In this document: in pieces, positions 832 to 29,231 of the stretch | How positions within the stretch are numbered: position 1 is the first letter of the stretch | Layout: each line of letters begins with the position of its first letter | From: a virus | IMG/VR virus record: IMGVR_UViG_3300034107_001163 | Location: 1-29,994 of that record | Strand: one strand, 5' to 3' | Length of the DNA stretch: 29,994 bases | Notes under the pieces: model-generated | Databases searched by the model: none | Told to the model about the DNA's origin: nothing | What the model saw: only the letters and a program-made list of their open reading frames with translations | Translations under genes and position numbers: made by a program

Positions 832-1425
832 ATGAAACATATTAGAACATTTGAATCTCATAGAACAGTTAAAGCGAATTTAAAAGCGATAAACCCTTCA
901 ATTTTTGAAGAAGCAATTAAAGAATCTGTTATAAGCGTAGGGGATATTTATAAAGTTAGATCTATGGTTGATATTCCACAATCATTGATAAATTCTTATG
1001 TTAAGAAAGTTAAAGATACAACTGGTAAAAATTTGCGTCAGTTCTTTGGTGATGTTGAAATCGCAGAAGAATTAGTAAAACATATCACTACATCTGGATT
1101 AGATATTGATAAAATTGATGGATCTGCTTTAATGGGTGGCGCACAAGGTCAAGTACAAACAACTGCTCAAACAACAACAGAGCAACCACAAGTTCAAGTT
1201 GATACACAAGCAGAAACTCAACCTGCTGCACAAGAAGCACCAGTAGCACAAGAAGCCCCTGCACAGGAAGAAGTACCTGCTCAAGCACAAGAAACCGTAG
1301 CACAACCAAGTGCTCAGTTTGAAGAACCTGCTCAAGCACAAGAAGGTCAAGCTCCTGCTCAAGAAGAAGAGGAAGAGGAAGAAGAAAAGAAAGAAGGTGA
1401 GGAAGAAGAAGAATTACCTTTATAA
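832..1425 (+). CDS. Tagged protein with Gln/Ala-rich and poly-Glu tail
   Basis: 197 aa, not recognised. It starts MKHIRTFESH, one of at least seven N-termini in this window that look like T4 capsid-targeting peptides. Residues about 12-100 appear globular and helical. From about residue 101 the chain is low complexity: Q/A/P/E repeats (PAQAQE, QEAP) ending in a run of eight Glu and then a Glu/Lys/Gly mixture. The tail is strongly acidic, like T4 prohead core or internal proteins. It resembles the APAQ-rich tail of the portal protein at 13737. A role as an internal head or core protein is plausible but unproven. Long open frames on the opposite strand come from the biased repeats. Confidence 0.75.
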   Translation: MKHIRTFESHRTVKANLKAINPSIFEEAIKESVISVGDIYKVRSMVDIPQSLINSYVKKVKDTTGKNLRQFFGDVEIAEELVKHITTSGLDIDKIDGSALMGGAQGQVQTTAQTTTEQPQVQVDTQAETQPAAQEAPVAQEAPAQEEVPAQAQETVAQPSAQFEEPAQAQEGQAPAQEEEEEEEEKKEGEEEEELPL

Positions 1426-1452
1426 GATACTAGTAAACTAGAAATTAAAAAG

Positions 1453-1480
1453 AACTTATCAAGAAATTGATGAGTTTTTT
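1453..1480 (+). terminator. Rho-independent terminator
   Basis: The hairpin AACTTATCA / TGATGAGTT (one G-U pair) with a 6-base loop is followed by a T-run. It ends the transcript of the gene at 832, and the next late promoter starts within a few bases. Confidence 0.6.
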
Positions 1481-1482
1481 TA

Positions 1483-1497
1483 TTTAATATATAATCT
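1483..1497 (+). promoter_or_regulatory. Late-promoter-like motif touching the start codon
   Basis: TTTAATATATAATCT is followed directly by ATG at 1498. If transcription begins about 6 bases after the TATATA box, as for T4 late promoters, the message would begin at the start codon. Confidence 0.5.
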
Positions 1498-1971
1498 ATG
1501 AAACATTTAAAATTATTTGAGAACTTTGATAATGAAAGTGAAGTTGAGAAAATATGGGGAATAGATCCATATGAATTACTAGATCTTTGTTTGTCTTGTA
1601 TTGATGAATTATTTCTAAATGCAAGTGTAAGATTGGACTTTGGTTTAGTTACTTATAAAACACAGACACGTTGGAAAGCACCTTCTTGGGAACAAGCGAA
1701 TTGGAATTCGATTTATACACTAAAGTCTGGTAATCTAACTAAATATGTTGATGTTGATGTTGATAGTTTACTTAATTCTAAAAATAGCAAAGCGTTTGAA
1801 ATTGTTTTATATAATTTAGGAGCGACTGATGAAGATGATAAAAAAGTTGAAGATTTTAATAAATTAATTGCAGATAGATTGAAATCTTATGGTGTTGATT
1901 TTGTAATTACTGATTCTGATTATTCTTCAACAGATACCTCTTTTTTAACAATATATTTAAATAATATATAG
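1498..1971 (+). CDS. Tagged hypothetical protein
   Basis: 157 aa, not recognised. The N-terminus MKHLKLFENF matches the capsid-targeting-like tag shared by several genes here, which fixes the start even though there is no leader or ribosome binding site. The rest is acidic with mixed alpha/beta character and a Trp-containing stretch around residues 55-75 (TRWKAPSWEQANWN). Only three bases separate it from the next tagged gene at 1975, so the two are probably co-transcribed from the promoter at 1483. Confidence 0.75.
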   Translation: MKHLKLFENFDNESEVEKIWGIDPYELLDLCLSCIDELFLNASVRLDFGLVTYKTQTRWKAPSWEQANWNSIYTLKSGNLTKYVDVDVDSLLNSKNSKAFEIVLYNLGATDEDDKKVEDFNKLIADRLKSYGVDFVITDSDYSSTDTSFLTIYLNNI

Positions 1972-1974
1972 AAT

Positions 1975-2610
1975 ATGAGATATATAAAAACTTTTGAAAA
2001 TCACAATAAGAATAATGACATTCTTATAATCGTAGATGTGCAAAGATCATTTAAAAAGTTTTTCACTGAAATGTATATTCATGAATTAAAAAAGTATTGT
2101 AAGAACTTCAGTAGAGTTTATCAAATATGGGATAACCATCATCTAGGTAAGAATGTTGATAAAGATTACTTATATGATGAGAATCCTGATATACCAATAC
2201 ACGATGATTTATATCATTTTCCAAACCAAACAGATTTGATAGAGAAGAGATATAATTATGATGTTGATTCTGACTTCTATAAAAAGGTTCTAGATGAAGA
2301 TACTTATAAAGAAGTTAGTGATAAAGAAGATAAGAAAGAATTGAAACGAGGTGACTTCTTTAATACAAAAGAAGGAACTATAATAGTTTTTATAGACAAT
2401 CGACATCGTTGGTTTCACTGTCCTAAAAAGTTATATGATCTATTTATTGAAATTACAGAAGCACAAGTAAATGATGTAGAAGTAACTATAGTTGGTGGTG
2501 CTGATTCTGAATGTCTTCTAGACGTTGAAGTTGCAGCTAAATCAATGGGTGTTAAATTCAAAAGAAATGATGGATATATCTATTCTGCATCATATTGTCC
2601 TATAAAATAA
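1975..2610 (+). CDS. Isochorismatase/nicotinamidase-fold hydrolase with capsid-tag-like N-terminus
   Basis: 211 aa. After a short tag (MRYIKTFENH) comes the first strand of a cysteine-hydrolase fold, ILIIVDVQRSF, with the likely catalytic Asp at residue 21. Near the end, VTIVGGADSECLLDVEVAA carries the candidate nucleophile Cys180, in the position and context of the GxxxxxC motif of isochorismatase-like hydrolases. Residues around 53 (WDNHH) resemble the metal- or substrate-binding region. Family members hydrolyse nicotinamide, isochorismate, N-carbamoyl compounds and others, so the substrate cannot be named. The catalytic Lys is not obvious. A role after injection into the host is inferred from the tag only. 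Confidence 0.7.
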   Translation: MRYIKTFENHNKNNDILIIVDVQRSFKKFFTEMYIHELKKYCKNFSRVYQIWDNHHLGKNVDKDYLYDENPDIPIHDDLYHFPNQTDLIEKRYNYDVDSDFYKKVLDEDTYKEVSDKEDKKELKRGDFFNTKEGTIIVFIDNRHRWFHCPKKLYDLFIEITEAQVNDVEVTIVGGADSECLLDVEVAAKSMGVKFKRNDGYIYSASYCPIK

Positions 2611-2619
2611 TAATTAATT

Positions 2620-2826
2620 ATGCCAGCAAAATCTAAACAACAAGCAAAATACATTTGGGCTATGCGAAATAAATATAAGTCCAAAAAGAAAGCACCTAAG
2701 AATATGAAATGGGTTTTTAATAAAGAATGGACTGATGATATTAGTTTTAAGGATTTACCTAAAAAGATAAAAGAGAAACATATACACGATTTTATTTCGT
2801 TTATAAATGAGAATTATTTACTTTAA
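2620..2826 (+). CDS. Small basic phage protein, MPAKSK family
   Basis: 68 aa and very basic. It starts MPAKSKQQAKYIWAMRNKYK, the opening typical of a small conserved family found in many phages (often annotated as hypothetical, close to DUF3008-type proteins). The C-terminus (KHIHDFISFINENYLL) resembles the N-terminal tags of other proteins here, including an I-N-E site like the predicted capsid cleavage site. Its end overlaps that of the gp25 gene on the other strand by sharing the palindrome TTAA. Function unknown. Confidence 0.7.
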   Translation: MPAKSKQQAKYIWAMRNKYKSKKKAPKNMKWVFNKEWTDDISFKDLPKKIKEKHIHDFISFINENYLL

Positions 2827-6851: not shown

Positions 6852-8588
6852 ATGATTATAGATTTATATATTAAGATAGCAACAAAGGGATGTAGAAAAT
6901 TAGACAATTTCAAAAAATTGGGTTATGATATAACTGGTGATTTTATTGAATTAAAAGTTTCTGATTTAAATACAGGATCAAGGCAATTGGTTAATATAGA
7001 ATGTGATTTCTGCAAAAAGATAGTTTCTGCAACTTATAAAGAATATTCTAGAAATATATCTATTGGTAATAAATATGCTTGCTCAAAACATTGTGGTTCG
7101 TTAAAAGCAAAAGATACTAATTTAATAAAATATGGTGTTGAACACCCAATGATGTTAGGTGAAACACAAGATAAAGTAAAAAATACAAATTTAGATAGAT
7201 ACGGTTTTGAGTTTTTGCAACAATCCAATATAATTAGAGAGAAATCAAAAGTTACTAATTTAATTAGATATGGTTTTGATAGTTATTCAAAGACTGATGA
7301 ATTTTTGATTAAATTTAAGAGCACTAATTTGGATAAATATGGTGTTGAGTTTCCTTCGCAATCAGAAATTATAAGAAATAAATCAAAGGAAACTTGGATA
7401 TCGAATTTAGGTGTTGATAATCCTAGTAAATCTATTGATGTTAGAAATAAAGTAAAAAATACCAATTTAGATAAATATGGTGTTGAAATTCCAATTAAAC
7501 TAGATGAATTTAAGCATAAAACGATAAAAACTAATTTAGATAGATATGGTGTTGATAATCCTATGAAGTCTTATTTTTTGAGAAAAGATAAATATTCAAT
7601 TACATCCGATAGTAGACTTTTAAAATATATAAATAATAGTAAATCTCTAATGAGATGCGAACTTGGACATGAATTTGAAATACATATAGATAATTACTAT
7701 AAGAGAATCTCATCTAATTTACCATTATGCACAATATGTTATCCAATTGGTAATACTAGATCAATAAAAGAATTAGAATTATATAAATTCATATCATCTA
7801 TTTATAATGGTGTGATAATGCAATCATATAGAGATGGTTTAGAAATTGATATTTATTTACCTGATTTAAAATTAGGATTTGAGTTTAATGGTCTTTATTG
7901 GCATTCTGAAGAATACAAGGAGCGAAATTACCATTCAAAAAAGACACAATATTTTAATGAAATTGGTATAAGAATAATACATATATGGGAGGATGATTGG
8001 GTATTTAATAATGATATAATAAAAAGTCAAATAAGAAATTGGATTTCAACAACATCTTTTAAAATATTTGCAAGAGTGTGTGAAATAAAAGAGGTTGGTT
8101 TAACAGAATGTAGAGAATTTTTAAATAAGAATCATATACAAGGATATACAAATTCGATAAAGAAGATAGGTTTATATTTATCCAATGAATTGGTAAGTTT
8201 GATGACATTTGATAATTTGGAAGGTAGAAAAAGAATGTTAGATAATGAATGGAATCTTAATAGATTTTGTAATAAATTAGATACCAACGTCGTTGGTGGC
8301 GCTTCTAGACTATTAAATTATTTTATTAAAAATAATAATCCAACTAGGATTATTAGTTATGCTGATAAAGATTGGAGTCAAGGAGATCTTTATTATAAGT
8401 TAGGATTCTCAAATATAAATGAAAGTAAAGAAGATTATAAGTATATTGTGAATGGTAAGCGAGTTCACAAATCTAGATATAGTAAGTCAAAATTAAAAAC
8501 TAATTTATCAGAGTCATTAGAAATGAAAAATAAAGGTTTATATAAGATATGGGATTGCGGTAAGATTAAATTTGAGATGTTATTTTAA
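6852..8588 (+). CDS. Homing endonuclease, Vsr-like (EDxHD type), with seven 23-aa repeats
   Basis: 578 aa. The N-terminus has a zinc-finger-like CDFC...CSKHC pattern (about 52-78). Residues 89-249 are seven tandem 23-residue repeats with the core TNLDKYGV.., a DNA-binding module of phage homing endonucleases. Residues about 295-380 are a Vsr-like PD-(D/E)xK nuclease: LEIDIYLPDLKLGFEFNGLYWHSE carries the acidic and His residues, followed by IIHIWEDDW. The C-terminal part (about 400-570; NKNHIQGY, IGLYLSNELVSLMTF, RFCNKLDTNVVGGASRLL, YADKDWSQGDLYYKLGF) is the domain usually attached to such nucleases. It looks intact and sits as an insertion before the gp55 gene. Confidence 0.85.
   Translation: MIIDLYIKIATKGCRKLDNFKKLGYDITGDFIELKVSDLNTGSRQLVNIECDFCKKIVSATYKEYSRNISIGNKYACSKHCGSLKAKDTNLIKYGVEHPMMLGETQDKVKNTNLDRYGFEFLQQSNIIREKSKVTNLIRYGFDSYSKTDEFLIKFKSTNLDKYGVEFPSQSEIIRNKSKETWISNLGVDNPSKSIDVRNKVKNTNLDKYGVEIPIKLDEFKHKTIKTNLDRYGVDNPMKSYFLRKDKYSITSDSRLLKYINNSKSLMRCELGHEFEIHIDNYYKRISSNLPLCTICYPIGNTRSIKELELYKFISSIYNGVIMQSYRDGLEIDIYLPDLKLGFEFNGLYWHSEEYKERNYHSKKTQYFNEIGIRIIHIWEDDWVFNNDIIKSQIRNWISTTSFKIFARVCEIKEVGLTECREFLNKNHIQGYTNSIKKIGLYLSNELVSLMTFDNLEGRKRMLDNEWNLNRFCNKLDTNVVGGASRLLNYFIKNNNPTRIISYADKDWSQGDLYYKLGFSNINESKEDYKYIVNGKRVHKSRYSKSKLKTNLSESLEMKNKGLYKIWDCGKIKFEMLF
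7116..7598 (+). repeat. Seven 69-bp coding repeats in the homing endonuclease
   Basis: Seven consecutive units of exactly 23 codons, each starting near TNL(D/I)(K/R)YG(V/F). The units have diverged (the fifth begins TWISNLGV), so they are old protein repeats rather than recent DNA duplication. The truncated gene at 18008-18397 carries two units of the same kind. Confidence 0.85.
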
Positions 8589-9606: not shown

Positions 9607-9891
9607 ATGAAATACGTTAAAACTTTTGAAAGTTTCTCATTAACTATTGATCCTAAAATTCCTATCTCTAGTCAATTAATGGATCTTTGTGATTCTGAAA
9701 AACTTAATAGACAACAAGAAGAACTAGCAAAAGAATTTATAGAATTAGAGGACAACACAGATGATTCGAAAAAAGTAGTTGGATCTAAATCTTATATTAG
9801 AAGACTTCAAATACTTAAGCTACTAGGATTTTCAGATACTTCTAGATTTGAGGAAATTTGGAAAATGTTTGATAAATCTGAAGGATTTTAA
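9607..9891 (+). CDS. Tagged small protein
   Basis: 94 aa, not recognised. It starts MKYVKTFESFSL, a clear member of the capsid-targeting-like tag family (M-K-x-I/V-K-T-F-E). The remainder is predicted mostly helical and charged. It is a single-gene unit with its own late promoter motif and terminator, as expected for a small internal head protein made late in infection; that role is inference. Confidence 0.75.
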   Translation: MKYVKTFESFSLTIDPKIPISSQLMDLCDSEKLNRQQEELAKEFIELEDNTDDSKKVVGSKSYIRRLQILKLLGFSDTSRFEEIWKMFDKSEGF

Positions 9892-13736: not shown

Positions 13737-15455
13737 ATGGCATCATATAATTATTTCAATAACAATGCATCTGAGCAAACCTTTGGTATGCAAAATTCTG
13801 CGGTTGAGAATAAAGGGTTATTCAATAGAATATTAAGAAATCTTTCAAATCATGGAATGAACTATGATGATATGATTATCAGAAACCAAGTTGGTATTGG
13901 TATAAATGAAGATCCATATGCAGCAAAGGGTAACTCAATGTATGATTTCTTCTCACAAAGAGCTGTAGCATCTGTACTTAATAGAAAGTCTATTCCTTAT
14001 TTAGATAAATCATATAATGATAAAAGAAGAATTCTTAGAGAGTATTCTATAAAAGATGAGATTAGAGATTTTGTTAGTCAAGTTGCTGATGAGTGTGTTG
14101 TTTATAATGATGATAGAGACTTTTGTTCACCTAGACCAATTTCAAATGATTACTCACAAGATATAAAAGATAAATACCAACAGTATTTCGAAACTATTTA
14201 TAATAAATATGGTTTCTCTGATAGTATAACTGCTTGGAATATGATTAAAGACTTTTTAGTTGATGGATATGTTGCAATTGAGATCGTTTATGATGATAAG
14301 AAAAAGAACATTATTGCTTTTAATAGATTAAGACCAGAGACTATAGTTCCTGCTTATGAGCCTAATGTTGGTCACTTATGGATTCAGTTTCCTGAAGATC
14401 CACAATTAAGAAGAATATTCTTAGATTCACAAATTGTTTTCGTTTCATATTCTACACAAAATGATTTCTCAGAAACTTCTTATGTTGAGGGTTTAATCAA
14501 ACCTTATAACCAATTGAAAATATTAGAACAAACAAAAATTATGTTTAACATAATTAATGCTACTCTTTATCAAGAGTTCAAAATTCCGATCAAAGGTCTT
14601 TCTAGACAAAAAGCAGAAGAGCAAATTGGTCAACTTATTCATGATTATTCAGAAGAAGTTGAATGGGATGAAACTCTTGGTACATTAACACTTAATGGAT
14701 CTAAACACTTACCTTTCAATAAACAAATATGGTTTCCGGAAGGTGATGCTGGTTCTCCATCTATGGAATTGAAATCACCACAAGGGCACGATTTAAATGA
14801 AGATGGTATGTTGAAATGGTTTCACCAAGCACTTAAAAGAGCTAGTAAAATTCCATTAAATCGTTTCGAAGGTGAGAGTGGGGGTGGTAATTTAGTTACT
14901 GATGCAGCTGAGATGACAAGAGATGAGATTAAGTTCCATAACTTTATTGGTAGATTAAGAGCTAATTTTAGAGAGTTGATTGTTAAACCTATAAAGTTAC
15001 AAATGTTAATTGAATTTCCTGAATTGATAGAAGATGAAATGTTCTTAAATCAAATCGATGTTATATTCTATTCTAATCAAGTATTTGAAGAATGGAAAAA
15101 ATTAGGTAACTTAGAGAAAAAAGCAGGTATCGTCGGTACTTTACTTGGTGTTATGAATGGTGAGAAACCATATTTCCACATTGAGTATATTATGGATCAT
15201 ATATTTAAACTTACTCCTGAAGAAAAAGCAGAAAATCAAAAATACTGGGCGAAAGATGCCAGTGCAATTGGTTCTGGTGTTCCTGGTGAACCTGGTATGG
15301 AAGGTGGTGCTCCTGGTATGGAAGGTGGTGCTCAGGGTGGTGCTCAAATGGGTGCTGAGTCTCCAGTACAGGGCGGTGCTGAGGCTCCTGCACAAGCACA
15401 GGCTCCAGCACAAGGAGGTGCAGAAGCACCGGGTGGTGCTGAATTCGAATTCTAA
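13737..15455 (+). CDS. 20: Portal vertex protein, gp20-like
   Basis: 572 aa (T4 gp20 is 524). The protein forms the ring through which DNA enters and leaves the head. Recognisable features are the conserved central part (MIKDFLVDGYVAIEIVYD, then IIAFNRLRPETIVPAY), the LKWFHQALKRASKIPLNRF segment followed by a Gly-rich turn, and the helix FHNFIGRLRANFRELIVKPI. From about residue 515 a tail absent from T4 is added: Gly/Met/Glu repeats (GMEGGAP), then PAQAQ-type repeats ending EFEF. The same PAQAQ composition appears in the tagged protein at 832. The order portal, then protease-scaffold, then capsid follows T4, but here a minus-strand block interrupts it. Confidence 0.9.
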   Translation: MASYNYFNNNASEQTFGMQNSAVENKGLFNRILRNLSNHGMNYDDMIIRNQVGIGINEDPYAAKGNSMYDFFSQRAVASVLNRKSIPYLDKSYNDKRRILREYSIKDEIRDFVSQVADECVVYNDDRDFCSPRPISNDYSQDIKDKYQQYFETIYNKYGFSDSITAWNMIKDFLVDGYVAIEIVYDDKKKNIIAFNRLRPETIVPAYEPNVGHLWIQFPEDPQLRRIFLDSQIVFVSYSTQNDFSETSYVEGLIKPYNQLKILEQTKIMFNIINATLYQEFKIPIKGLSRQKAEEQIGQLIHDYSEEVEWDETLGTLTLNGSKHLPFNKQIWFPEGDAGSPSMELKSPQGHDLNEDGMLKWFHQALKRASKIPLNRFEGESGGGNLVTDAAEMTRDEIKFHNFIGRLRANFRELIVKPIKLQMLIEFPELIEDEMFLNQIDVIFYSNQVFEEWKKLGNLEKKAGIVGTLLGVMNGEKPYFHIEYIMDHIFKLTPEEKAENQKYWAKDASAIGSGVPGEPGMEGGAPGMEGGAQGGAQMGAESPVQGGAEAPAQAQAPAQGGAEAPGGAEFEF

Positions 15456-16476: not shown

Positions 16477-18015
16477 TTATTTTATTTTTTTTACAGGATA
16501 TCCATCGTTACCAAGAGCGATTGTTAATAACCTCATTGTCAAAATGTCGGAATAGCGCCGAATTGGCGAGGTAAAATGCGTATAGTCCTGAAAATCAAGG
16601 CCATAATGTGCAATTTCCTCAGTAGAATAGTAAGCTTTTTTCATAGATCTAATAACCAATGTGCTTAATATATTTTCTTCAGGAGTATCCTTTATTTTCT
16701 TGATAAGTTTATTTAATTCATCCTTTGTTGTTTCCGGGTCACTTATTTCTAATTCGTGTCCGAAATTAAGAGCAATCCTTTTCAACTGAAGTAATTTTTC
16801 ATCATCTGGCTCTGGGTGTACTCGATTAACACAAGGTAGTTCTTTTGATTTTATGAATTTAGCAACTTCTTTATTAGCAAGTAGCATATATTCTTCAATT
16901 AGTTTATTTGCATCTTTTTGCTCTTTGAAATAAACACCAAGTGGTTTACCATTTTCATCAAGATTGAATTTAACTTCTTTACCACCCATCTCAATAGAAC
17001 CATCTTTGATTCTTTGCTTTCTCATAACTTTTGCAATTTTATCCAATTCTAATATAATTGAATCTGTATCACTACCATCACCACCGTTTTCAATAACTTC
17101 TTGTGCTTGTTCATACGAGTAATCTTTGTCTACATTTATAATTGTTCTACCAAACCATTTTTTTGTTACTTTTCCTTTATCATCAATTCTGAATGTTGCG
17201 GTGTAACATAGTCTATCAGGTCCTGATTTCAAACTACATATACCATTACTCAATCTTTTTGGTAACATAGGTACACATCTATCTACTAAATATACAGAAG
17301 TGCCTCTTTTGTATGCTTCTTTGTCTAATTCGGTTTTTGGAGTTATATAGTGTGTAACATCTGCTATATTTATAGATATAAATCTTTCACCATTTATAAA
17401 CTCTAAACTTAAAGTATCATCCGCATCTTTCGAATCAAATGGATCTATACCGATTGTTGTTACATTTCTAAGATCTTTTCTTTTATCAATTTCTTTTTGT
17501 GATATTATTTCAGATACTAGTTCTGATTCATTTATCACTTCTTGTGGAAAATCAACCGGTAGACCATACTCATACATAATTGCATTCATTTCGGTCTCAT
17601 TCTCACCAACGGTTCCTAGAACTTTTATTATTCTAGCGATTGGAGATTTCATTCCTGGTTCCCATCTTTCAAATTCAACTAAAACTTTTTGATTATTCTC
17701 AGCGATGTGTTTTCCTTTTATATAGAAATCTGCTTTTATTTTTGGATTATCAACAACTACAAATGTATGATCTTTTTTAACTTGTGTTGTTCCGACAAAT
17801 TCGGTCTTAAATCTTTCGATTACTTCGGTTACTTTTGCTTCTAGTTTTTTTTCACCTTGGAATAATACAATTTTAACTTTGTCTAAGTGCAACGCAGTAC
17901 TTGTTCTTTTTTTATGAACAAAGAATTCTTTATTTTCTATTCTAATTGCACCGTTACCTGATGTGGAGAATTCAATTTGTGTTTCGAAAATATCTCCCTC
18001 GTTGTATTTACTCAT
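16477..18015 (-). CDS. rnr: RNase R N-terminal part: cold-shock domains and RNB catalytic core
   Basis: 512 aa from ATG 18015. A start at 18051 is possible, but MSKYNEGDIF is the natural beginning of the first OB domain. Residues about 1-130 hold two cold-shock/OB folds. The RNB core starts near 185: GIDPFDSKDADD supplies the four metal-binding Asp (191, 197, 199, 200) with family spacing. CVPMLPKRLSNGICSL, NRVHPEPDDEKL and YTHFTSPIRRYSD follow. It degrades structured RNA 3' to 5'. The protein stops at VKKIK just after the SPIRRY helix; the rest is encoded by the next gene. It starts within the end of the endonuclease fragment (8-base overlap). Confidence 0.9.
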   Translation of the reverse strand: MSKYNEGDIFETQIEFSTSGNGAIRIENKEFFVHKKRTSTALHLDKVKIVLFQGEKKLEAKVTEVIERFKTEFVGTTQVKKDHTFVVVDNPKIKADFYIKGKHIAENNQKVLVEFERWEPGMKSPIARIIKVLGTVGENETEMNAIMYEYGLPVDFPQEVINESELVSEIISQKEIDKRKDLRNVTTIGIDPFDSKDADDTLSLEFINGERFISINIADVTHYITPKTELDKEAYKRGTSVYLVDRCVPMLPKRLSNGICSLKSGPDRLCYTATFRIDDKGKVTKKWFGRTIINVDKDYSYEQAQEVIENGGDGSDTDSIILELDKIAKVMRKQRIKDGSIEMGGKEVKFNLDENGKPLGVYFKEQKDANKLIEEYMLLANKEVAKFIKSKELPCVNRVHPEPDDEKLLQLKRIALNFGHELEISDPETTKDELNKLIKKIKDTPEENILSTLVIRSMKKAYYSTEEIAHYGLDFQDYTHFTSPIRRYSDILTMRLLTIALGNDGYPVKKIK

Positions 18016-18397
18016 TTTTTTTATTCTTTTTTGAAATATTGTCAACTCCATATTTATCTATTAGAGTTTGTTTCATTTTTGACAACACCTTTTTATTTTG
18101 TATTGGATAATCAACTCCGAAGTTTTTTCTTAGAGTTTCCTTTCTTTTGACTTCGGAGCATTTTCTACAATAGTAGTCACCCCAATTATTATCATATTTT
18201 AAGTAGTTTTTATAGATGACATCTTTCTCTATACCACATCCATCACATTTACATTTTATTTTATAATGTGAGCCTTTTGGTAAAAGTTCTACAGGAATTA
18301 CTATAATTTCACCAATTGTTGTGTCATAACCTAAATCATCATAGTACTGATAATTTGATTCATTGACTTTAATTTCTATTTCTCTTGTTAATATCAT
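18008..18397 (-). CDS. Truncated homing endonuclease (DNA-binding part only)
   Basis: 129 aa. A four-Cys zinc-finger pattern (CKCDGCG at about 57, CRKCSE at about 87) is followed by two of the repeats seen in the intact endonuclease at 6852 (ETLRKNFGVDYPIQNKKVLS, then QTLIDKYGVDNISKK). The protein stops there, with no nuclease domain. Its last 8 bases overlap the RNase R start. It is probably a decayed mobile gene that now forms the head of the RNase R operon; a regulatory role is possible but unsupported. A TTTTTTATATACAATAAG element on the minus strand (18413-18430) may be its promoter. Confidence 0.7.
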   Translation of the reverse strand: MILTREIEIKVNESNYQYYDDLGYDTTIGEIIVIPVELLPKGSHYKIKCKCDGCGIEKDVIYKNYLKYDNNWGDYYCRKCSEVKRKETLRKNFGVDYPIQNKKVLSKMKQTLIDKYGVDNISKKNKKNE

Positions 18398-18547: not shown

Positions 18548-20716
18548 ATGAAACCAGTTTTAATAGTAGAAAATTCGACTAACTCTCTTATCAGAGAGAA
18601 TAACAGCACTGGTAAGAAGGATTATGTCTTAAATGGTACATTCACTGAATTTAATGTTAAAAACAGAAATGAGAGAATATACACCGCGGATAAATTCCTT
18701 CCTGCTCTACAGGAGATGAATGAAAGAATGAGCAACCTAGGTGTTGTTTATGGTGAGTTTGATCACCCAGATGTTTTTGATACATCACTTTCTCGCGCTT
18801 CTCACGTAATTACAAAAGCTAGTTACGTAAAAGAATCAAATTTAATTGAAGGTGAGATCAGATTATTAAGTACTTATTGGGGAAAAGAAGCGAAGGCGCT
18901 TGTCGATGACAACTGTCCTCTTTTTGTTTCATCAAGAGCTGCTGGTATAACTGAGTCTGACGGTACTGTTTCACTTAAAAAACTTTTCACTTATGACATC
19001 GTTGCGGATCCAGGATTTGCATCAGCGAAAATGAGTATAAAAGCACTTAATGAATCTTTAGGATTCTGTGAAAGCGGTCAAATTGAAAAAAATAACTTTA
19101 GGATATATGAATTATCCGATGAGTCAAAAACAGAAGAATTATTTAACATGAACAAAAATGAGTATGTTACTAAACAACAATTAACTGATTACTCACAGTA
19201 TTTAGTTAAGGAATTGGCATCTACAAAGAAAGAAGTTAAAAGTGCCATCACAAAAGGGAATATGAGCCCTAAAAAATTAGAGCAACTTTTAGAGTATTAT
19301 GATGAGTTGAATAAAACTAACTCACAAGTTGTTAAATATTTAGATTATTTGGCTGAGAAAGTTCAAATAATGGTAAATGAAAACAAGGCTCTTCAAGAAA
19401 CTACTAACAAATTAATCGAACATAACGATTATTTAGCAGAAAACTTAGAGAAAGCAGTTAACTATTCTGAGTACTTAGCAGAAAACTTAGAGAAAAATAT
19501 TGCTTATTCTGAATATGTTGCAGAAAATGTTGATAAAAACATTTCTTATACAGAGTATTTGGCTGAAAATTTAGACAAGAATATTTCTTATTCTGAGTAC
19601 ATCGCTGAAAACTTAGATAAAAACATTGGTTATTCTGAATATTTAGCTGAAAATTTAGACAAGAATATCGCTTATTCTGAGTACATCGCTGAAAGTGTTG
19701 ATAAAAACATCGCTTATTCTGAGTATATCGCTGAAAATTTAGACAAAAACATCGCATATGCTGAGTATATCGCTGAAAACGTTGATAACTCTATTGCTTA
19801 TTCTGAATATTTAGCTGAGCACGTTGAAGGTAATATCGCTTATTCTGAGTACATCGCTGAACATTTAGATGATAACATCGCTTACTCTGAATATATCGCC
19901 GAAAATTTAGATAAAACTATTTCTTATGCAGGTTTAATTACTGAAAAATTAAATGGTGGTAAATTAAATGAATCAGAAGGTGGATATCCATCATTGAATG
20001 CACATGGTTTTGAATCTCACGAAGAGAAAGAAGAGGAATATGCACACGAAGAAGAAGAAGCACACGAAGAAGAAGCACACGAAGGTAATGGTATTGCTGA
20101 GGTAGCACCAGAGCACGCTTATGCACACGAAGATAATGAAGACGAAGAAGAAGATGAAAATTGTGGACCAAATAACTATGAGGTAAACGGGAATTCTGAA
20201 TCAGAATTGTCAGAATCTATTGATAAATTAATCGAAGAAGCTAAAAAACGTAAAGTTTCTGAGACATCAGATTTGAATTTCTTAAAATTCTTATCTAAAT
20301 CACAAGTTGATAGCTATTATGCATTGACAAACGAAGAACAAGATACTGTTAAACTTCACATAAACGAAAGAAGTTACTTCACACAAAAAGAAGTATTATC
20401 ATTGATCTCCGAGTCTTTATCAACTAAAAACGAAACTCTTGAAGAAAGAGTAATCAGATTAATGCCTGAGAACACAAAGGCTATCTGGGATCAGTTAAAT
20501 GAATCAGGTAAAAAATCTATTTTATCACAAGCTAGATTATACCCTGAAGAAGTTTTAATGACTGAATCACAAGTTGAGCATTTCTGGAATACTAGAAATC
20601 TTAAAAAGAATGAATCTACAACTAAAAAGCTAGTTTCTCATGAAGCATTAATCCAAGAGGATAAATTGTCTGATAATGAAGTTTCTGCTATTATGGAAAG
20701 ATTCAAAAACATTTAA
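18548..20716 (+). CDS. 21-22: Prohead protease fused to scaffold protein (gp21-gp22)
   Basis: 722 aa. Residues 1-175 are a prohead serine protease: NGTFTEFNVKNRNERIY, GEFDHP with His73, LFVSSRA with Ser128/129, and YDIVADPGFASA with Asp150/154. Residues 201-722 form the scaffold. Two clear helical regions flank twelve 14-residue repeats (292-459, consensus YSEYIAENLDKNIA), followed by a Glu/His-rich acidic stretch (about 488-540) and a helical C-terminus. In T4 these are separate genes. An in-frame ATG (residue 201, base 19148) could yield a free scaffold, as in lambda-type protease/scaffold genes. LNE at 167-169 and the I/L/V-A-E of each repeat look like prohead protease sites, so self-cutting would release scaffold fragments during maturation. 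Confidence 0.85.
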   Translation: MKPVLIVENSTNSLIRENNSTGKKDYVLNGTFTEFNVKNRNERIYTADKFLPALQEMNERMSNLGVVYGEFDHPDVFDTSLSRASHVITKASYVKESNLIEGEIRLLSTYWGKEAKALVDDNCPLFVSSRAAGITESDGTVSLKKLFTYDIVADPGFASAKMSIKALNESLGFCESGQIEKNNFRIYELSDESKTEELFNMNKNEYVTKQQLTDYSQYLVKELASTKKEVKSAITKGNMSPKKLEQLLEYYDELNKTNSQVVKYLDYLAEKVQIMVNENKALQETTNKLIEHNDYLAENLEKAVNYSEYLAENLEKNIAYSEYVAENVDKNISYTEYLAENLDKNISYSEYIAENLDKNIGYSEYLAENLDKNIAYSEYIAESVDKNIAYSEYIAENLDKNIAYAEYIAENVDNSIAYSEYLAEHVEGNIAYSEYIAEHLDDNIAYSEYIAENLDKTISYAGLITEKLNGGKLNESEGGYPSLNAHGFESHEEKEEEYAHEEEEAHEEEAHEGNGIAEVAPEHAYAHEDNEDEEEDENCGPNNYEVNGNSESELSESIDKLIEEAKKRKVSETSDLNFLKFLSKSQVDSYYALTNEEQDTVKLHINERSYFTQKEVLSLISESLSTKNETLEERVIRLMPENTKAIWDQLNESGKKSILSQARLYPEEVLMTESQVEHFWNTRNLKKNESTTKKLVSHEALIQEDKLSDNEVSAIMERFKNI
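19421..19924 (+). repeat. Twelve 42-bp coding repeats in the scaffold
   Basis: Twelve head-to-tail units of 14 codons, consensus Y-S-E-Y-I-A-E-N-L-D-K-N-I-A. Fourteen residues are two heptads, so the unit fits a continuous coiled coil. Degenerate copies flank the array (one at residue 264, one at 460). Units differ in synonymous bases (ATCGCTTATTCTGAG and variants), so the protein sequence is being maintained. Confidence 0.95.
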
Positions 20717-20799: not shown

Positions 20800-22512
20800 A
20801 TGTCACACATTAGAATAGACAACGCGAAAGCAACTAAGAAATGGGCTCCAGTTTTAGAAAACATGGGAGTAACAGGTGATAGAGTTGAATGGATGGCGGA
20901 ATACGCTGAATTTCACTCAATCAACGAAAACGCATACGTAAATGCTTCAAACGTAGGAGGTATGGGTGCAGTATTGAATCCAATAATTGGTGGTCAAGCA
21001 GGACAAACTTTAAACGCACTTGGTGCTGTAAATGGTTCAGGAGACGTAGGTCAAAACTTGTTACCAGTTGCAATGAAAATTGCTGCTCAAACAATCGGTT
21101 TAGATTTAGTAGCTGTTAAACCAACACCTGGTCCGAAAATCGATTTACTTTATATTGATTTCCAATATGATGATTCTAGATCAACTAACTCACAAGATGA
21201 GAGACCACAAGTTTTCAAATTAAAAGCTGATGGTTCAACTAATCAAACAGCTATTGCTAATCACATTAATGCTAATTTAGGTTCTGCTAACTTAAACTCT
21301 GGTGGTATCGTATCAGGTAGAGTATTTGTTGCTAACTTCGCAGGTAATAATGCATTAGCAAACACTGCAGGTGATATTGCTGCGCTTGAAGCAGGATCTA
21401 AAGCAGGTGTTTTAGAATTCTTAGGATTCTCAAGAGTAGATGGTTACCCAATGTTTAGAGCATACAGACAAGCAAACACTGCACACACTGGTGTTGGTGG
21501 TGGAGCTAATTCTCTTTGGTCTTTTGACGCAACAAGAAACTCTTTCAACCCAACACAATCTATGGCAGACCAAATTAACTATATTGGTACTGTTGCAGTA
21601 ACTGGAAATCCTGAGATACAATTAGTATCTGCATTAGAGGATCACATCCCAGGTTTCTCTGCTAACTGGACTGCTAATTTAGCAACTGGTGATTATCCAA
21701 TGGGTCGTCAAGCTGATGATGATTCTTATGCTGGAGTTATCGGACCAAAAATCTCTTCTAAAACTATCGCAGTTGGTACTATTGAAGTATCTTCAGCTTT
21801 AAGAAGAACAGAAATCGAAGATATCAAAGCAAACACAGGTATGGATATCGTTCAAAAAATGGAATCTATCCTTGTTAACGAATTGTCTCAAACAATTTCT
21901 AAACAAATCGTTGCTAAAATCTTCGAAATGGGTTCTTTAAATAGAACTAATGCTCCTGCTTTCGCTGGTACTCCTACTATCACTGGTCACACTATCTTTG
22001 ACTTAGATACTGCTTATGCTGGTACTGGTGTTGTTGGTGGTGAAACTACTCACGCTGTACAAAGAAAATTGATCACGAAAATTGCTCACGCTTCTAACTA
22101 CATCGCAACTGAGGGTCGTGTAGGACCTGCTCAATACCTTATCACAAATGGAGGTTTAGCAGCTGCTCTTCAAGACATCGCTGGTTACACAATTAACCCA
22201 GTTAGATCTAAATTAAACGGACAAGGTCAATTATACCCTGTTGGAACAATCGGAGATATCGCTATCTATGTTGATCCTTACATGAGATATAATGATAACA
22301 GAATCGTTTTAGGAAGAAAAAATAACCCAGATCAACCAGGTATCATTTTCGTACCTTACTTGATGGCACAATCTATCTCAGTTATTTCTGAAGCGACTTT
22401 CGCACCAAGAATGTTACTAAGATCTAGATATGCTGTTGCAGAAGTTGGATGGTTCCCACAAAAACAATTTATGACTATCCAAGTTAAAGATGCTTCTCAA
22501 TTATTGAACTAA
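20800..22512 (+). CDS. 23: Major capsid protein, gp23-like
   Basis: 570 aa (T4 gp23 is 521). It starts with a helical region containing KKWAPVLENMG, comparable to T4 NKWKPLLEGEG. SINE at 40-43 followed by Asn is the likely maturation site, comparable to FLTE-A in T4, so the mature chain would begin at residue 44. The rest has HK97-fold features: a Gly/Ala-rich entry, TIEVSSALRRTEIEDIKA, YLITNGGLAAALQDI and IAIYVDPYMRYNDNR. Codon choice is the most biased of the window, and an inverted-repeat promoter and strong terminator flank the gene, as expected for the most abundant virion protein. Confidence 0.93.
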   Translation: MSHIRIDNAKATKKWAPVLENMGVTGDRVEWMAEYAEFHSINENAYVNASNVGGMGAVLNPIIGGQAGQTLNALGAVNGSGDVGQNLLPVAMKIAAQTIGLDLVAVKPTPGPKIDLLYIDFQYDDSRSTNSQDERPQVFKLKADGSTNQTAIANHINANLGSANLNSGGIVSGRVFVANFAGNNALANTAGDIAALEAGSKAGVLEFLGFSRVDGYPMFRAYRQANTAHTGVGGGANSLWSFDATRNSFNPTQSMADQINYIGTVAVTGNPEIQLVSALEDHIPGFSANWTANLATGDYPMGRQADDDSYAGVIGPKISSKTIAVGTIEVSSALRRTEIEDIKANTGMDIVQKMESILVNELSQTISKQIVAKIFEMGSLNRTNAPAFAGTPTITGHTIFDLDTAYAGTGVVGGETTHAVQRKLITKIAHASNYIATEGRVGPAQYLITNGGLAAALQDIAGYTINPVRSKLNGQGQLYPVGTIGDIAIYVDPYMRYNDNRIVLGRKNNPDQPGIIFVPYLMAQSISVISEATFAPRMLLRSRYAVAEVGWFPQKQFMTIQVKDASQLLN

Positions 22513-22593: not shown

Positions 22594-23151
22594 ATGATAA
22601 TATTAAAATATAATAACTTTAGTGAATCTTTGATTAACCTAATAAAAGATGATTTAAATAGGTTTGTAGATTTAGGATTTACCATAAAACACAAAGAAAT
22701 ATTAGATGATTTAGGTAATAAATTTAATATCTATTATGGTAAAAATGCAAAATCTAATGAATATTTAACTAATATGCACTCTGGTAAATATGCAAACTCA
22801 ATAGGTGGTTTCGCTCCTAGTAAAAATGATATATGGATGCACGTTGATAGTGTCGGAAATAATAATAAGGTAATGGGTACACACTTAATAATAAAAACAA
22901 ATGCTGATAATATTGTTCCGGATGAGGTTATTAAACTAGCAGCAGATATTGTAAGAGATAACAGTGTTATGTTAGTTGATGATAAAAAGTACAATTTGAA
23001 AAATGTTGATAAAGTAAATGTTGTTTTTTGTGGTAAAGATTTTGTTAAAAAGGAAAAAAACACTAACTTAGGCGAAGTAAATGTTGATATCAATAATAAA
23101 AGTTATGTTGTTTTCTCAGCAGATAATATTAAAATAACTGATAATATATGA
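22594..23151 (+). CDS. Tagged hypothetical protein
   Basis: 185 aa from ATG 22594. A TTG further up at 22567 would place the start inside the preceding terminator and is rejected. The N-terminus MIILKYNNFSESL matches that of the minus-strand protein at 25904 (MSILKYSKFLKDL), forming a second variant of the tag family, with F-S-E as a possible cleavage point. The body is mixed alpha/beta and not recognised. Its stop overlaps the start of the peptidase gene as ATGA. Confidence 0.75.
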   Translation: MIILKYNNFSESLINLIKDDLNRFVDLGFTIKHKEILDDLGNKFNIYYGKNAKSNEYLTNMHSGKYANSIGGFAPSKNDIWMHVDSVGNNNKVMGTHLIIKTNADNIVPDEVIKLAADIVRDNSVMLVDDKKYNLKNVDKVNVVFCGKDFVKKEKNTNLGEVNVDINNKSYVVFSADNIKITDNI

Positions 23152-24841: not shown

Positions 24842-25351
24842 ATGATAGAAAAATTTGAAGGTAGATGGCGTTTCTTATCGAATTTCCATCCTTGTAAAAT
24901 AGAACACCAAGGAATTACTTATCCTTCCGTAGAACACCACTACGTTGCTATGAAGTGTAATACTTCTCAATACTTTAATGGTAATCAATATACCGTTGGT
25001 GATTTTAGAGAAATCATTGCTAAAACGGTAAGCGCAGCGGTTGTTAAAAAAATGGGACAACAAATGAAAGTAAGATCTGATTGGGATGAAAAGAAATTAG
25101 ACTTTATGAATTGGGCGGTTCGTGAGAAATTTAAACAAGAAGATTTAAAAGAATTACTTTTATCCACAGAAGATCTACCTATAATTGAAGGGAATTTTTG
25201 GCACGATGTCTACTGGGGCCAATGCTCTTGTGATAAGTGTAAAGGTAAAGGTGAAAATCATCTTGGTAAAATACTTATGAAAGTAAGAGATGAGATAAAA
25301 GGAGTAAAAAGACCAGATAGTCTTGGGGATTTTCTCAATCAAAGTCGGTAA
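24842..25351 (+). CDS. NADAR-family N-glycosidase (YbiA-like)
   Basis: 169 aa. Residues 4-40 (FEGRWRFLSNFHPCKIEHQG, then YPSVEHHYVAMK) carry the family signature: the F.G....LSNF start and the catalytic S-x-E-H motif (Glu31). NFWHDVYWGQC and NHLGKILMKVRDE complete it. CSCDKC between them could bind zinc, as in other phage members. YbiA cleaves riboflavin precursors. NADAR proteins also act on ADP-ribosyl compounds, including removal of ADP-ribose from guanine in DNA in DarT-type toxin systems. In a phage this could counter ADP-ribosylating or NAD-depleting defence. The end overlaps the convergent gene by 17 bases. Confidence 0.85.
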   Translation: MIEKFEGRWRFLSNFHPCKIEHQGITYPSVEHHYVAMKCNTSQYFNGNQYTVGDFREIIAKTVSAAVVKKMGQQMKVRSDWDEKKLDFMNWAVREKFKQEDLKELLLSTEDLPIIEGNFWHDVYWGQCSCDKCKGKGENHLGKILMKVRDEIKGVKRPDSLGDFLNQSR

Positions 25352-25904
25352 TATAATCTTTTATTATTTTCTCTACATTATCAAATGTGTAATCTAGATC
25401 ATCTAAATTTAGTTTATATATCACATATATTTGATTATTGTTTATATTATTTATGTTGTATGTATAATTGATATATTTTTCCGGTATTTGTTCAACCATA
25501 TTTAAATAAATACTTTGTCTCTTTGTTAGTAATTTATCATCTTTTTTAGTTTTCTTCATTTCATCCTCACTAAGAGCACAAAAAACTATAGCATTTGGTG
25601 ATTTATTTTCAATTAAATATATGATACCTCTTTTTGAGGTAGATAAAACTACATATTTATCAGTATCTATACCCGTTGCATTTGGCGATAGTTCTATTTT
25701 ATTATTAACTCCTTTTTTTGCTAAATAGAATTTATATGACCAAGCATCACCTGTTAATTTAAAATCTAGTTGATATGTATTTTCACCTACTTTGAACAAA
25801 CCGATTAATCTATCTGTGTTATCTATCCATTTTATATCTACATTTGATGTGTATAAAGACTCCGATAAATCTTTTAAAAATTTACTATATTTTAATATAC
25901 TCAT
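25335..25904 (-). CDS. Tagged hypothetical protein
   Basis: 189 aa, not recognised. The N-terminus MSILKYSKFLKDLSESLY resembles that of the protein at 22594 and the wider tag family. On the minus strand the start codon directly follows TTTTAATATATAAAAT, a late motif, leaving no leader. The body is alpha/beta, Lys- and Asn-rich. It is convergent with the NADAR gene and shares 17 coding bases with it. Confidence 0.72.
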   Translation of the reverse strand: MSILKYSKFLKDLSESLYTSNVDIKWIDNTDRLIGLFKVGENTYQLDFKLTGDAWSYKFYLAKKGVNNKIELSPNATGIDTDKYVVLSTSKRGIIYLIENKSPNAIVFCALSEDEMKKTKKDDKLLTKRQSIYLNMVEQIPEKYINYTYNINNINNNQIYVIYKLNLDDLDYTFDNVEKIIKDYITDFD

Positions 25905-28592: not shown

Positions 28593-29231
28593 TTAATTTT
28601 TTGGCGTTATTATTATTTCAGCAGCATCATATAATCCTCTACCAATATTTTCTTTGAAATCTAAATTCCAATCAGAAAAATCAATACCTTTTACCAGTGA
28701 GCTCCACTTTCTTCGTGTATAAGCCATAGAACAATTAACGATCACTGCATCATCTTTTACTACAACAGTAACACAATTTGCGAAATCACTTTTCGAACTT
28801 CTATGTCTTGAATCTATTTCAGACTTCAGTTTTTTTAATTTGAATTCTAGCGTATTTGTATCAGTTTGACCATGTAAATATGATAATTGTATTTCAGCAG
28901 TTGTTAAGTGTATAAATACTTTATCTGATTCCAATCTTCTTTTAAGTGTACATACTTCATCTAATATTTCCCATATTCTATCATCATAGATAGTACCATA
29001 ATATAAATATGATCCTTTTGAAGTACCTAATTCTACCTTATCCAAATTCAAAAATATTCTAATTGTAGTTATTTCTCTACCTTCATACTCGCCTGCTAAA
29101 ATAGTGTGTTTATCATTAACACGCACTTCTAAACCCATATGTTTAAGTGGTATTAAAAAATCATTTAGATCATCTTTATCCCATTCTTCACTTTCGGTTA
29201 AAAACTTTATAAATTTAGTTATATGTCTCAT
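28593..29231 (-). CDS. Tagged hypothetical protein
   Basis: 212 aa, not recognised. The N-terminus MRHITKFIKFLTESEEW is the copy most like T4 tags, with F-L-T-E as a probable prohead protease site, identical to that used in T4 gp23. The body is mixed alpha/beta. Its ATG overlaps the stop of the upstream gene (ATGA), so it is expressed from an operon rather than its own late promoter. Confidence 0.72.
   Translation of the reverse strand: MRHITKFIKFLTESEEWDKDDLNDFLIPLKHMGLEVRVNDKHTILAGEYEGREITTIRIFLNLDKVELGTSKGSYLYYGTIYDDRIWEILDEVCTLKRRLESDKVFIHLTTAEIQLSYLHGQTDTNTLEFKLKKLKSEIDSRHRSSKSDFANCVTVVVKDDAVIVNCSMAYTRRKWSSLVKGIDFSDWNLDFKENIGRGLYDAAEIIITPKN

Follow-up and report, generated by a model that had tools for sequence, protein, structure and literature searches.

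Genes and Features of the Fragment

The DNA analysed is the 29,994-base record IMGVR_UViG_3300034107_001163, an unfinished virus fragment, the whole stretch of which is called the window here. Seven of its open reading frames, of 94 to 212 amino acids, start with near-identical peptides. These had been pointed out in an earlier, sequence-only reading of the DNA, and all seven were found at the positions and on the strands given there (Table 1); the range 832–2610, to which that reading had been assigned, covers only three of the tagged starts. A glutamate at residues 8–13 had been named as a common feature of the tags, which holds for most of them, the protein starting at 25904 having this glutamate at residue 15. 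Two aromatic residues are spaced as [FY]..F in five of the seven tags (1498, 9607, 22594, 25904, and 29231) and as F..H in the tags at 832 and 1975. The strict specificity of the T4 protease gp21, L/I-x-E, is found in three of the seven, the other four reading TFE, TFE, TFE, and FSE. The full T4 core F..F[ILV].E is matched by only one tag of the window, that of the 28593–29231 protein, which has 17 homologs, nearly all with the same kind of start. The ATG at 22594 sits within a longer TTG-started reading frame and its use as start is backed by the orthologs. No homologs of the 9607–9891 and 25335–25904 proteins were found among the relatives compared, so that the former stands outside every training family of the models described below.

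Table 1. Tags, upstream elements, and head genes of the window. The arrow follows the terminal glutamate of a tag or marks a candidate protease site.
Feature	Position	Strand	Remarks
Tag MKHIRTFE↓SH of a 197-aa protein (832–1425)	832–855	+	26 homologs of the type MKH/YI/VRxFESY
TAATATATA element, 13 nt upstream of the start codon at 1498	1485–1493	+	
Tag MKHLKLFE↓NF of a 157-aa protein (1498–1971)	1498–1521	+	pN/pS 0.03 in the tag vs 0.68 in the body
Tag MRYIKTFE↓NH of a 211-aa nicotinamidase/isochorismatase-like protein (1975–2610)	1975–1998	+	Glu8 invariant, 19 orthologs
Further TAATATATA copies (tagged start in brackets)	798 (832), 1962 (1975), 9579 (9607), 22581 (22594), 25917 minus (25904)		
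Tag-like motif FISFINE near the C-terminus, followed by NYLL-stop, of a 68-aa protein (2620–2826)	2791–2811	+	
Tag MKYVKTFE↓SF of a 94-aa protein (9607–9891)	9607–9630	+	Found by the log-odds model with and without window homologs in training
Portal protein (gp20 type)	13737–15455	+	LR745206 counterpart matches phrog_213 / PF07230
gp21-like prohead protease fused to scaffold region	18548–20716	+	phrog_207 head maturation protease E 1.3e-30; PF03420 weak
Repeats of 14 residues, type SEYIAENLDKNIAY, within the scaffold region; I/L-A-E↓N as candidate protease sites	19430–19909	+	
gp23-type major capsid protein	20800–22512	+	PF07068 E 2.4e-30
FHSINE↓N at the capsid protein N-terminus, candidate maturation site	20911–20928	+	Same form as the tags
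Tag MIILKYNNFSE↓S of the NFACT-R domain protein (22594–23151)	22594–22626	+	Orthologs: varied tag classes, single body
Tag MSILKYSKFLKDLSE↓S of a 189-aa protein (25335–25904)	25860–25904	-	Lowest of the seven (log-odds 4.0)
Tag MRHITKFIKFLTE↓S of a 212-aa protein (28593–29231)	29193–29231	-	Homologs MKYLHKFLQHLNES, MKLHKFYEFIKEAA

A gp21-family protease, a scaffold, and a gp23-type capsid protein are all encoded in the window (phrog_207 1e-30, PF07068 2e-30). The fused protease-scaffold protein contains 34 [IL]xE sites as compared with 16 in shuffles, with YIAEN/YLAEN occurring repeatedly. In an alignment of 62 capsid protein N-termini the residues SINENAY are conserved; the window reads FHSINE↓NAYVNASN, and the capsid protein would be cut at SINE↓N.

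The capsid protein is 72–73% identical to its counterparts in LR745206 (634,780 bp) and LR756502 (642,428 bp) and 51–52% identical to those of a 636-kb and a 735-kb genome, all of which we take to be among the huge phages of Mahaphage type described by Al-Shayeb et al. 2020. Judged by its sequence the window comes from a huge phage of the Mahaphage type, with the nearest complete relatives having 634–642 kb. Elsewhere in the window, a large protein with repeated NLDRYGVDNPxKS segments is encoded at 6852–8588, and a shorter relative of it at 18008–18397 on the minus strand, overlapping the start of an RNase II-like gene; the two look like related mobile endonuclease-type genes.

Recognition and Frequency of the Tag

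For recognition of the tag a four-class ungapped mixture of N-termini was trained on LR745206 and IMG relatives with the window excluded; it replaced a gapped HMM which, with 39 match states built from inputs of 17 residues, was dropped as not strict enough. Log-odds above zero were obtained for exactly the seven tagged reading frames among the 39 of the window (23.5 down to 4.0, the next being -2.3), where 0.3 tags are expected from internal-methionine decoys. When all homologs of window genes were removed from training, the top six reading frames were six of the seven (binomial p ~1e-6, threshold 5), among them the 25335–25904 protein; in this training one class was over-fitted, with a decoy rate of 10% at zero, and the 28593–29231 protein was lost.

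In LR745206 a strict position-specific profile matched 115 of 923 N-termini, against an expectation of 0.4 derived from the internal methionines of these proteins, and the information in the profile of these 115 tags lies in residues 2–10 (K2, Y/H3, L/I4, K/R5, F/Y7, E/N8, and F10). A wider model combined with a sequence filter found about 158 of the 923 reading frames to be tagged, about 7 being expected. As the wider model lets in some false positives (a Clp protease start and some hydrophobic starts), the number of tagged reading frames is given as 115–160. By BLAST the bodies of the roughly 158 proteins fall into 144 clusters, 134 of them singletons, and the earlier description of the bodies as unrelated is thus mostly right; it does not apply to 23 tagged proteins which belong to one small paralogous family. 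This family comprises 28 small proteins of LR745206 with the motif DIxxELxDxGFxV (e.g. 491501, 37041, 397732, and 625486). Tagged genes tend to adjoin, with 55 adjacent pairs vs 27 expected (shuffle maximum 42).

The glutamate and its surroundings distinguish tagged from untagged proteins of LR745206. A glutamate at residues 8–15 is present in 95% of the tagged vs 41% of the untagged proteins, a glutamate followed by S/A/G/N in 68% vs 11%, [LIVFYM]-x-E in 85% vs 29%, and the strict L/I-x-E in 47% vs 17%. Aminoacyl-tRNA synthetases, Hsp70, ribonucleotide reductase, topoisomerase, an EF-G-like factor, and the portal protein are among the identified proteins that carry no tag.

The fixed-register mixture does not score the internal proteins of T4 because their register is shifted, whereas the core F..F[ILV].E does match them. 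For the comparison with T4 the register-free core pattern M.{1,5}[FY]..[FYH][ILVM].E was therefore used. Among the T4 N-termini examined it is found in IPII, IPIII, and 61.1 (0.3 expected), and in LR745206 in 22 N-termini vs 0.7 expected, an about 30-fold enrichment. The form [FY]..[FYH][ILVM]NE occurs eight times in the 196,299 amino acids of LR745206, seven times within the first 25 residues of a protein. The start MKTYQEFIAE had been ascribed to the T4 internal proteins and Alt in general; it is present in IPII and IPIII, but IPI begins with MKTFKEFTST and Alt with MELITELFDE. T4 gene 61.1 (NC_000866 18966–19130) starts with MKTFKEFIKED, the only other examined T4 N-terminus that fits the IPII/IPIII core, and by this start its product is possibly a further head-targeted T4 protein.

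A sister tag was found in Sphingomonas phage PAU (NC_019521), where 19 of 265 reading frames examined start with MK[ST][LI]xxL[YF]E or a close variant of it (0 expected). This tag, of the MKT[LI]..LYE[AS] type, is present on three of the four genes annotated in the record as internal capsid protein and on the scaffold (hypergeometric p 9e-5). Of these four, gp70 is without it.

Conservation and Exchange of the Tag

Lack of conservation of the N-termini in related phages, which the sequence-only reading had named as speaking against it, was looked for, and the N-termini were found to be conserved. The four window families with enough orthologs consist of the tag, a variable linker, and the body, and pN/pS is lower in the tag (0.37, 0.03, 0.17, and 0.38) than in the linker (0.61, 0.50, 0.27, and 0.48) in all four. 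At the same time many synonymous changes have accumulated in the tag (pS 0.45–0.79). By these measures selection acts on the tag as on a module of its own.

The plainest example comes from the NFACT-R family of the protein at 22594, for which 51 distinct sequences were available. Its body is conserved while its start varies, the orthologs beginning with MIKKFNSFNES, MKHLKQFES, MKLKKYSQFNES, MRNLKKFKSFLYEG, or MKHINNFKLYLES, all in front of the KKDKFP body, and the body (KKDKFPNI...) starts directly after the E-S or E-G of the tag. As the orthologs exchange tag variants in front of one body, the variants look interchangeable and the glutamate appears to be the end of the tag. A few orthologs of this family have no tag.

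The frequency of the tag differs among relatives. Tagged were 15 of 65 reading frames in a 50-kb sample of LR756502, about 4–5 of 49 in a sample of the 735-kb genome, 2 of 45 in a sample of LR756500, and 1 of 52 in a 50-kb sample of LR756504, though a gp23-type capsid protein is present in the latter. No tags were found in 50-kb samples of Lak-A1 and PTm1, despite their gp23-type capsid proteins, or in a 50-kb sample of phage G. The near-absence or absence in the samples of LR756504, Lak-A1, and PTm1 indicates that the tag is lineage-specific.

A motif resembling the tag occurs at the other end of the small MPAKSKQQ-type protein encoded at 2620–2826, and is kept in most of its about 20 homologs (IQDFISFINE, YVDFLNESYF). 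In L116 and L117 the FISFINE-type motif is followed by a further domain with a sequence resembling a tagged LR745206 protein (66070).

Proteins Carrying the Tag

Among the tagged proteins of the window, that at 22594–23151 is an NFACT-R domain protein (profile match to RqcH E 2.4e-23; structural model with pLDDT 89.8; Foldseek match to CCDC25 E 1.6e-9). In most relatives, too, a stand-alone NFACT-R gene of the RqcH/NEMF/CCDC25 type lies directly behind the major capsid gene, and no description of NFACT-R in a phage was found in the literature searched. For the protein at 1975 a weak Foldseek match to nicotinamidase was obtained (E 0.004, prob 0.99), and a PDB sequence search with it yielded nothing useful.

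Tagged proteins of LR745206 include a fusion of a 2H phosphoesterase (2'-5' RNA ligase family, with a weaker match to Acb1) and an RNase T-type exonuclease at 448257–449573, which carries a T4-like tag (MKLKKYKQFIKES), an RNA ligase of the T4 Rnl1 type (MKLFKYIEFINEN), a poly(A)/CCA-type polymerase (MILKKYKMFLES), a guanylate-cyclase domain protein, and a DHH-domain protein. As IPI–IPIII of T4 are anti-restriction proteins (PMC12373910), the list of tagged proteins is also a list of anti-defence candidates, some with recognisable enzymatic domains. That many of the tagged proteins serve in anti-defence may reasonably be supposed; to call them early effectors, as had been done, is a guess.

Interpretation and Alternatives

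What the sequences contain is a tag with its enrichment, its conservation, its exchange between orthologs, and its occurrence regardless of the body behind it, and a protease, scaffold sites, and a capsid protein occurring together with it. A chance likeness of lysine-rich starts in an AT-rich genome, where MKK-type starts are frequent, is a practically negligible explanation in view of the decoy counts for the window and LR745206 given above and of the phage G sample without tags. Plain paralogy, with one duplicated gene family of which the N-terminus is best conserved, would describe the small ELxDxGF family, 23 of its 28 members being tagged. It is nevertheless highly improbable as a general explanation, since the tag is found on NFACT-R, RNA ligase, poly(A) polymerase, 2H phosphoesterase-exonuclease, and other folds and since tags are exchanged between ortholog bodies; for the tagged set as a whole it was rejected on account of the 144 body clusters, with the exception of this one family of 28. 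Spreading of a DNA cassette made up of a promoter TAATATATA and the start region, the peptide being a by-product of selection for expression, has to be considered because elements of this type precede 43% of the tagged vs 13% of the untagged genes of LR745206 (2% background), with a peak at 13–14 nt ahead of the start codon. More than half of the tagged genes, however, are without the element, it also precedes portal, protease, helicase, UvsX recombinase, and clamp-loader genes, and the codons of the tag change synonymously while the amino acids are kept, all of which leaves this explanation a very small probability. The TAATATATA element is a candidate phage promoter, from which nearly leaderless transcripts would arise. 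Its use as proof of late, head-linked expression was rejected, as its occurrence ahead of the helicase, UvsX, and clamp-loader genes means that it is not head-specific and is uninformative on the head.

An alternative that we consider unlikely is docking of the tag to a target other than the prohead, such as a replication compartment, a membrane, a host factor, or an adaptor, the likeness to T4 being a convergence of short amphipathic helices. Basic amphipathic starts are a generic design for localisation, some of the tagged proteins resemble intracellular enzymes (RNA ligase, poly(A) polymerase, and cyclase), and the tag is missing from some relatives with gp23-type capsids. On the other hand, the conserved glutamate followed by S/A/G/N would be superfluous for docking and is required by a gp21-type protease, the large identified proteins of replication and translation are untagged, and the sister tag of PAU is found on annotated internal capsid proteins and the scaffold.

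The reading best supported, by the head genes, the key residues, the enrichment of the core, and PAU, is that of a T4-like capsid-targeting signal, from which the sharing of MKTYQEFIAE by Alt has to be removed. The common start is probably a capsid-targeting propeptide of the T4 type carried by a large number of proteins. That the seven window proteins are all packaged and injected, as originally proposed, is not supported in that wording; docking, cleavage, packaging, and injection of tagged proteins are steps that we infer. During head assembly the tag, consisting of Met, a basic and a hydrophobic residue, Lys, and an aromatic pair spaced by three, would dock the protein on an inner scaffold, a role for which the repeat-bearing C-terminal portion of the gp21-like protease is the candidate. 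The activated protease would then destroy its own I/L-A-E scaffold repeats, shorten the capsid protein at SINE↓N or close to it, and cut the tags after their terminal glutamate, so that the mature cargo would stay with the DNA and presumably be ejected into the next host.

Significance

No function is assigned to the majority of huge-phage genes, and a tag that can be read from the sequence would class 12–17% of the reading frames of a 634-kb phage as candidate head cargo and predict the mature N-termini of these candidates. The findings suggest a large protein cargo inside the virus particle. It is conceivable, with a likelihood somewhat short of even, that in the largest phages known as much as a sixth of all genes encode head-packaged proteins, that one interchangeable tag, existing also in a C-terminal form, makes any protein a virion cargo, and that the particle delivers a kit for counter-defence and takeover ahead of phage gene expression. 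If this is true, the kit would contain the 2H phosphoesterase-exonuclease, an RNA ligase of the tRNA-repair type, the poly(A)/CCA polymerase, and the cyclase, and in addition the NFACT-R factor with its binding to tRNA and ribosome, a nicotinamidase-like enzyme, and a multigene family of small proteins. With the tag there may also be a second signal for packaging, by which foreign proteins could be loaded into a very large capsid.

Comparison with Known Systems

In the literature searched, which was covered in part, no description of the tag in Mahaphages was found. A protein directed into the head by its N-terminal segment is known from phage P1, where 30 residues of DarB are sufficient (PMC9024508), but unlike the Mahaphage tags the N-termini of the P1 Dar proteins have no consensus (PMC9024508). 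The phages phiKZ and SPN3US (PMC5694885, PMC10052503) are, like the Mahaphages, giant phages with many head proteins, glutamate-directed removal of propeptides, and ejected proteins. In SPN3US the cleavage occurs at A-x-E with a preference for Ser at P1' (PMC5694885, PMC10052503). In contrast to the Mahaphages the propeptides of these phages are mostly long, often more than 100 residues, and no single short tag is common to them. Closer is PAU, which shares with the window phage a gp23-type head and one N-terminal type on many proteins; it differs in the wording of the tag (MKTLxxLYE[AS]), in the far smaller number of tagged proteins, in their clustering near head genes (e.g. 106051–108180 and 110719–113735), and in having protease and scaffold as separate genes, which are fused in the window phage.

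The Mahaphage tag set would be a much expanded form of the capsid-targeting system of T4. In the internal proteins of T4, as here, a short N-terminal propeptide is found on otherwise unrelated proteins (Mullaney and Black 1996; PMC9026906, PMC12373910). The first ten residues of IPIII are enough for packaging, residues 4 and 7 (Tyr4 and Phe7) controlling targeting and residues 8 and 10 processing, and gp21 cleaves after L/I-x-E (PMC9026906). IPI, IPII, and IPIII have only the leader in common, and they act against GmrSD restriction enzymes, a different one being blocked by each (PMC12373910). Common to the tags of the T4 internal proteins and of the Mahaphages are the aromatic pair three residues apart and, in most of the Mahaphage tags, the hydrophobic-x-Glu and the small residue, and a gp21-type protease, a scaffold, and a gp23-type capsid protein are encoded in one genome in T4 as in the window. 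The Mahaphage tags, for which packaging is predicted from sequence, differ from those of T4 in a longer start (MKYLK...), in the existence of several interchangeable variants, in a tag-like C-terminal motif in one protein, and in the candidate enzymes among their cargo. The most conspicuous difference is in the number of cargo proteins, about 115–160 candidates in the 634-kb relative as compared with three internal proteins in T4 and at least ten reported across T4 relatives.
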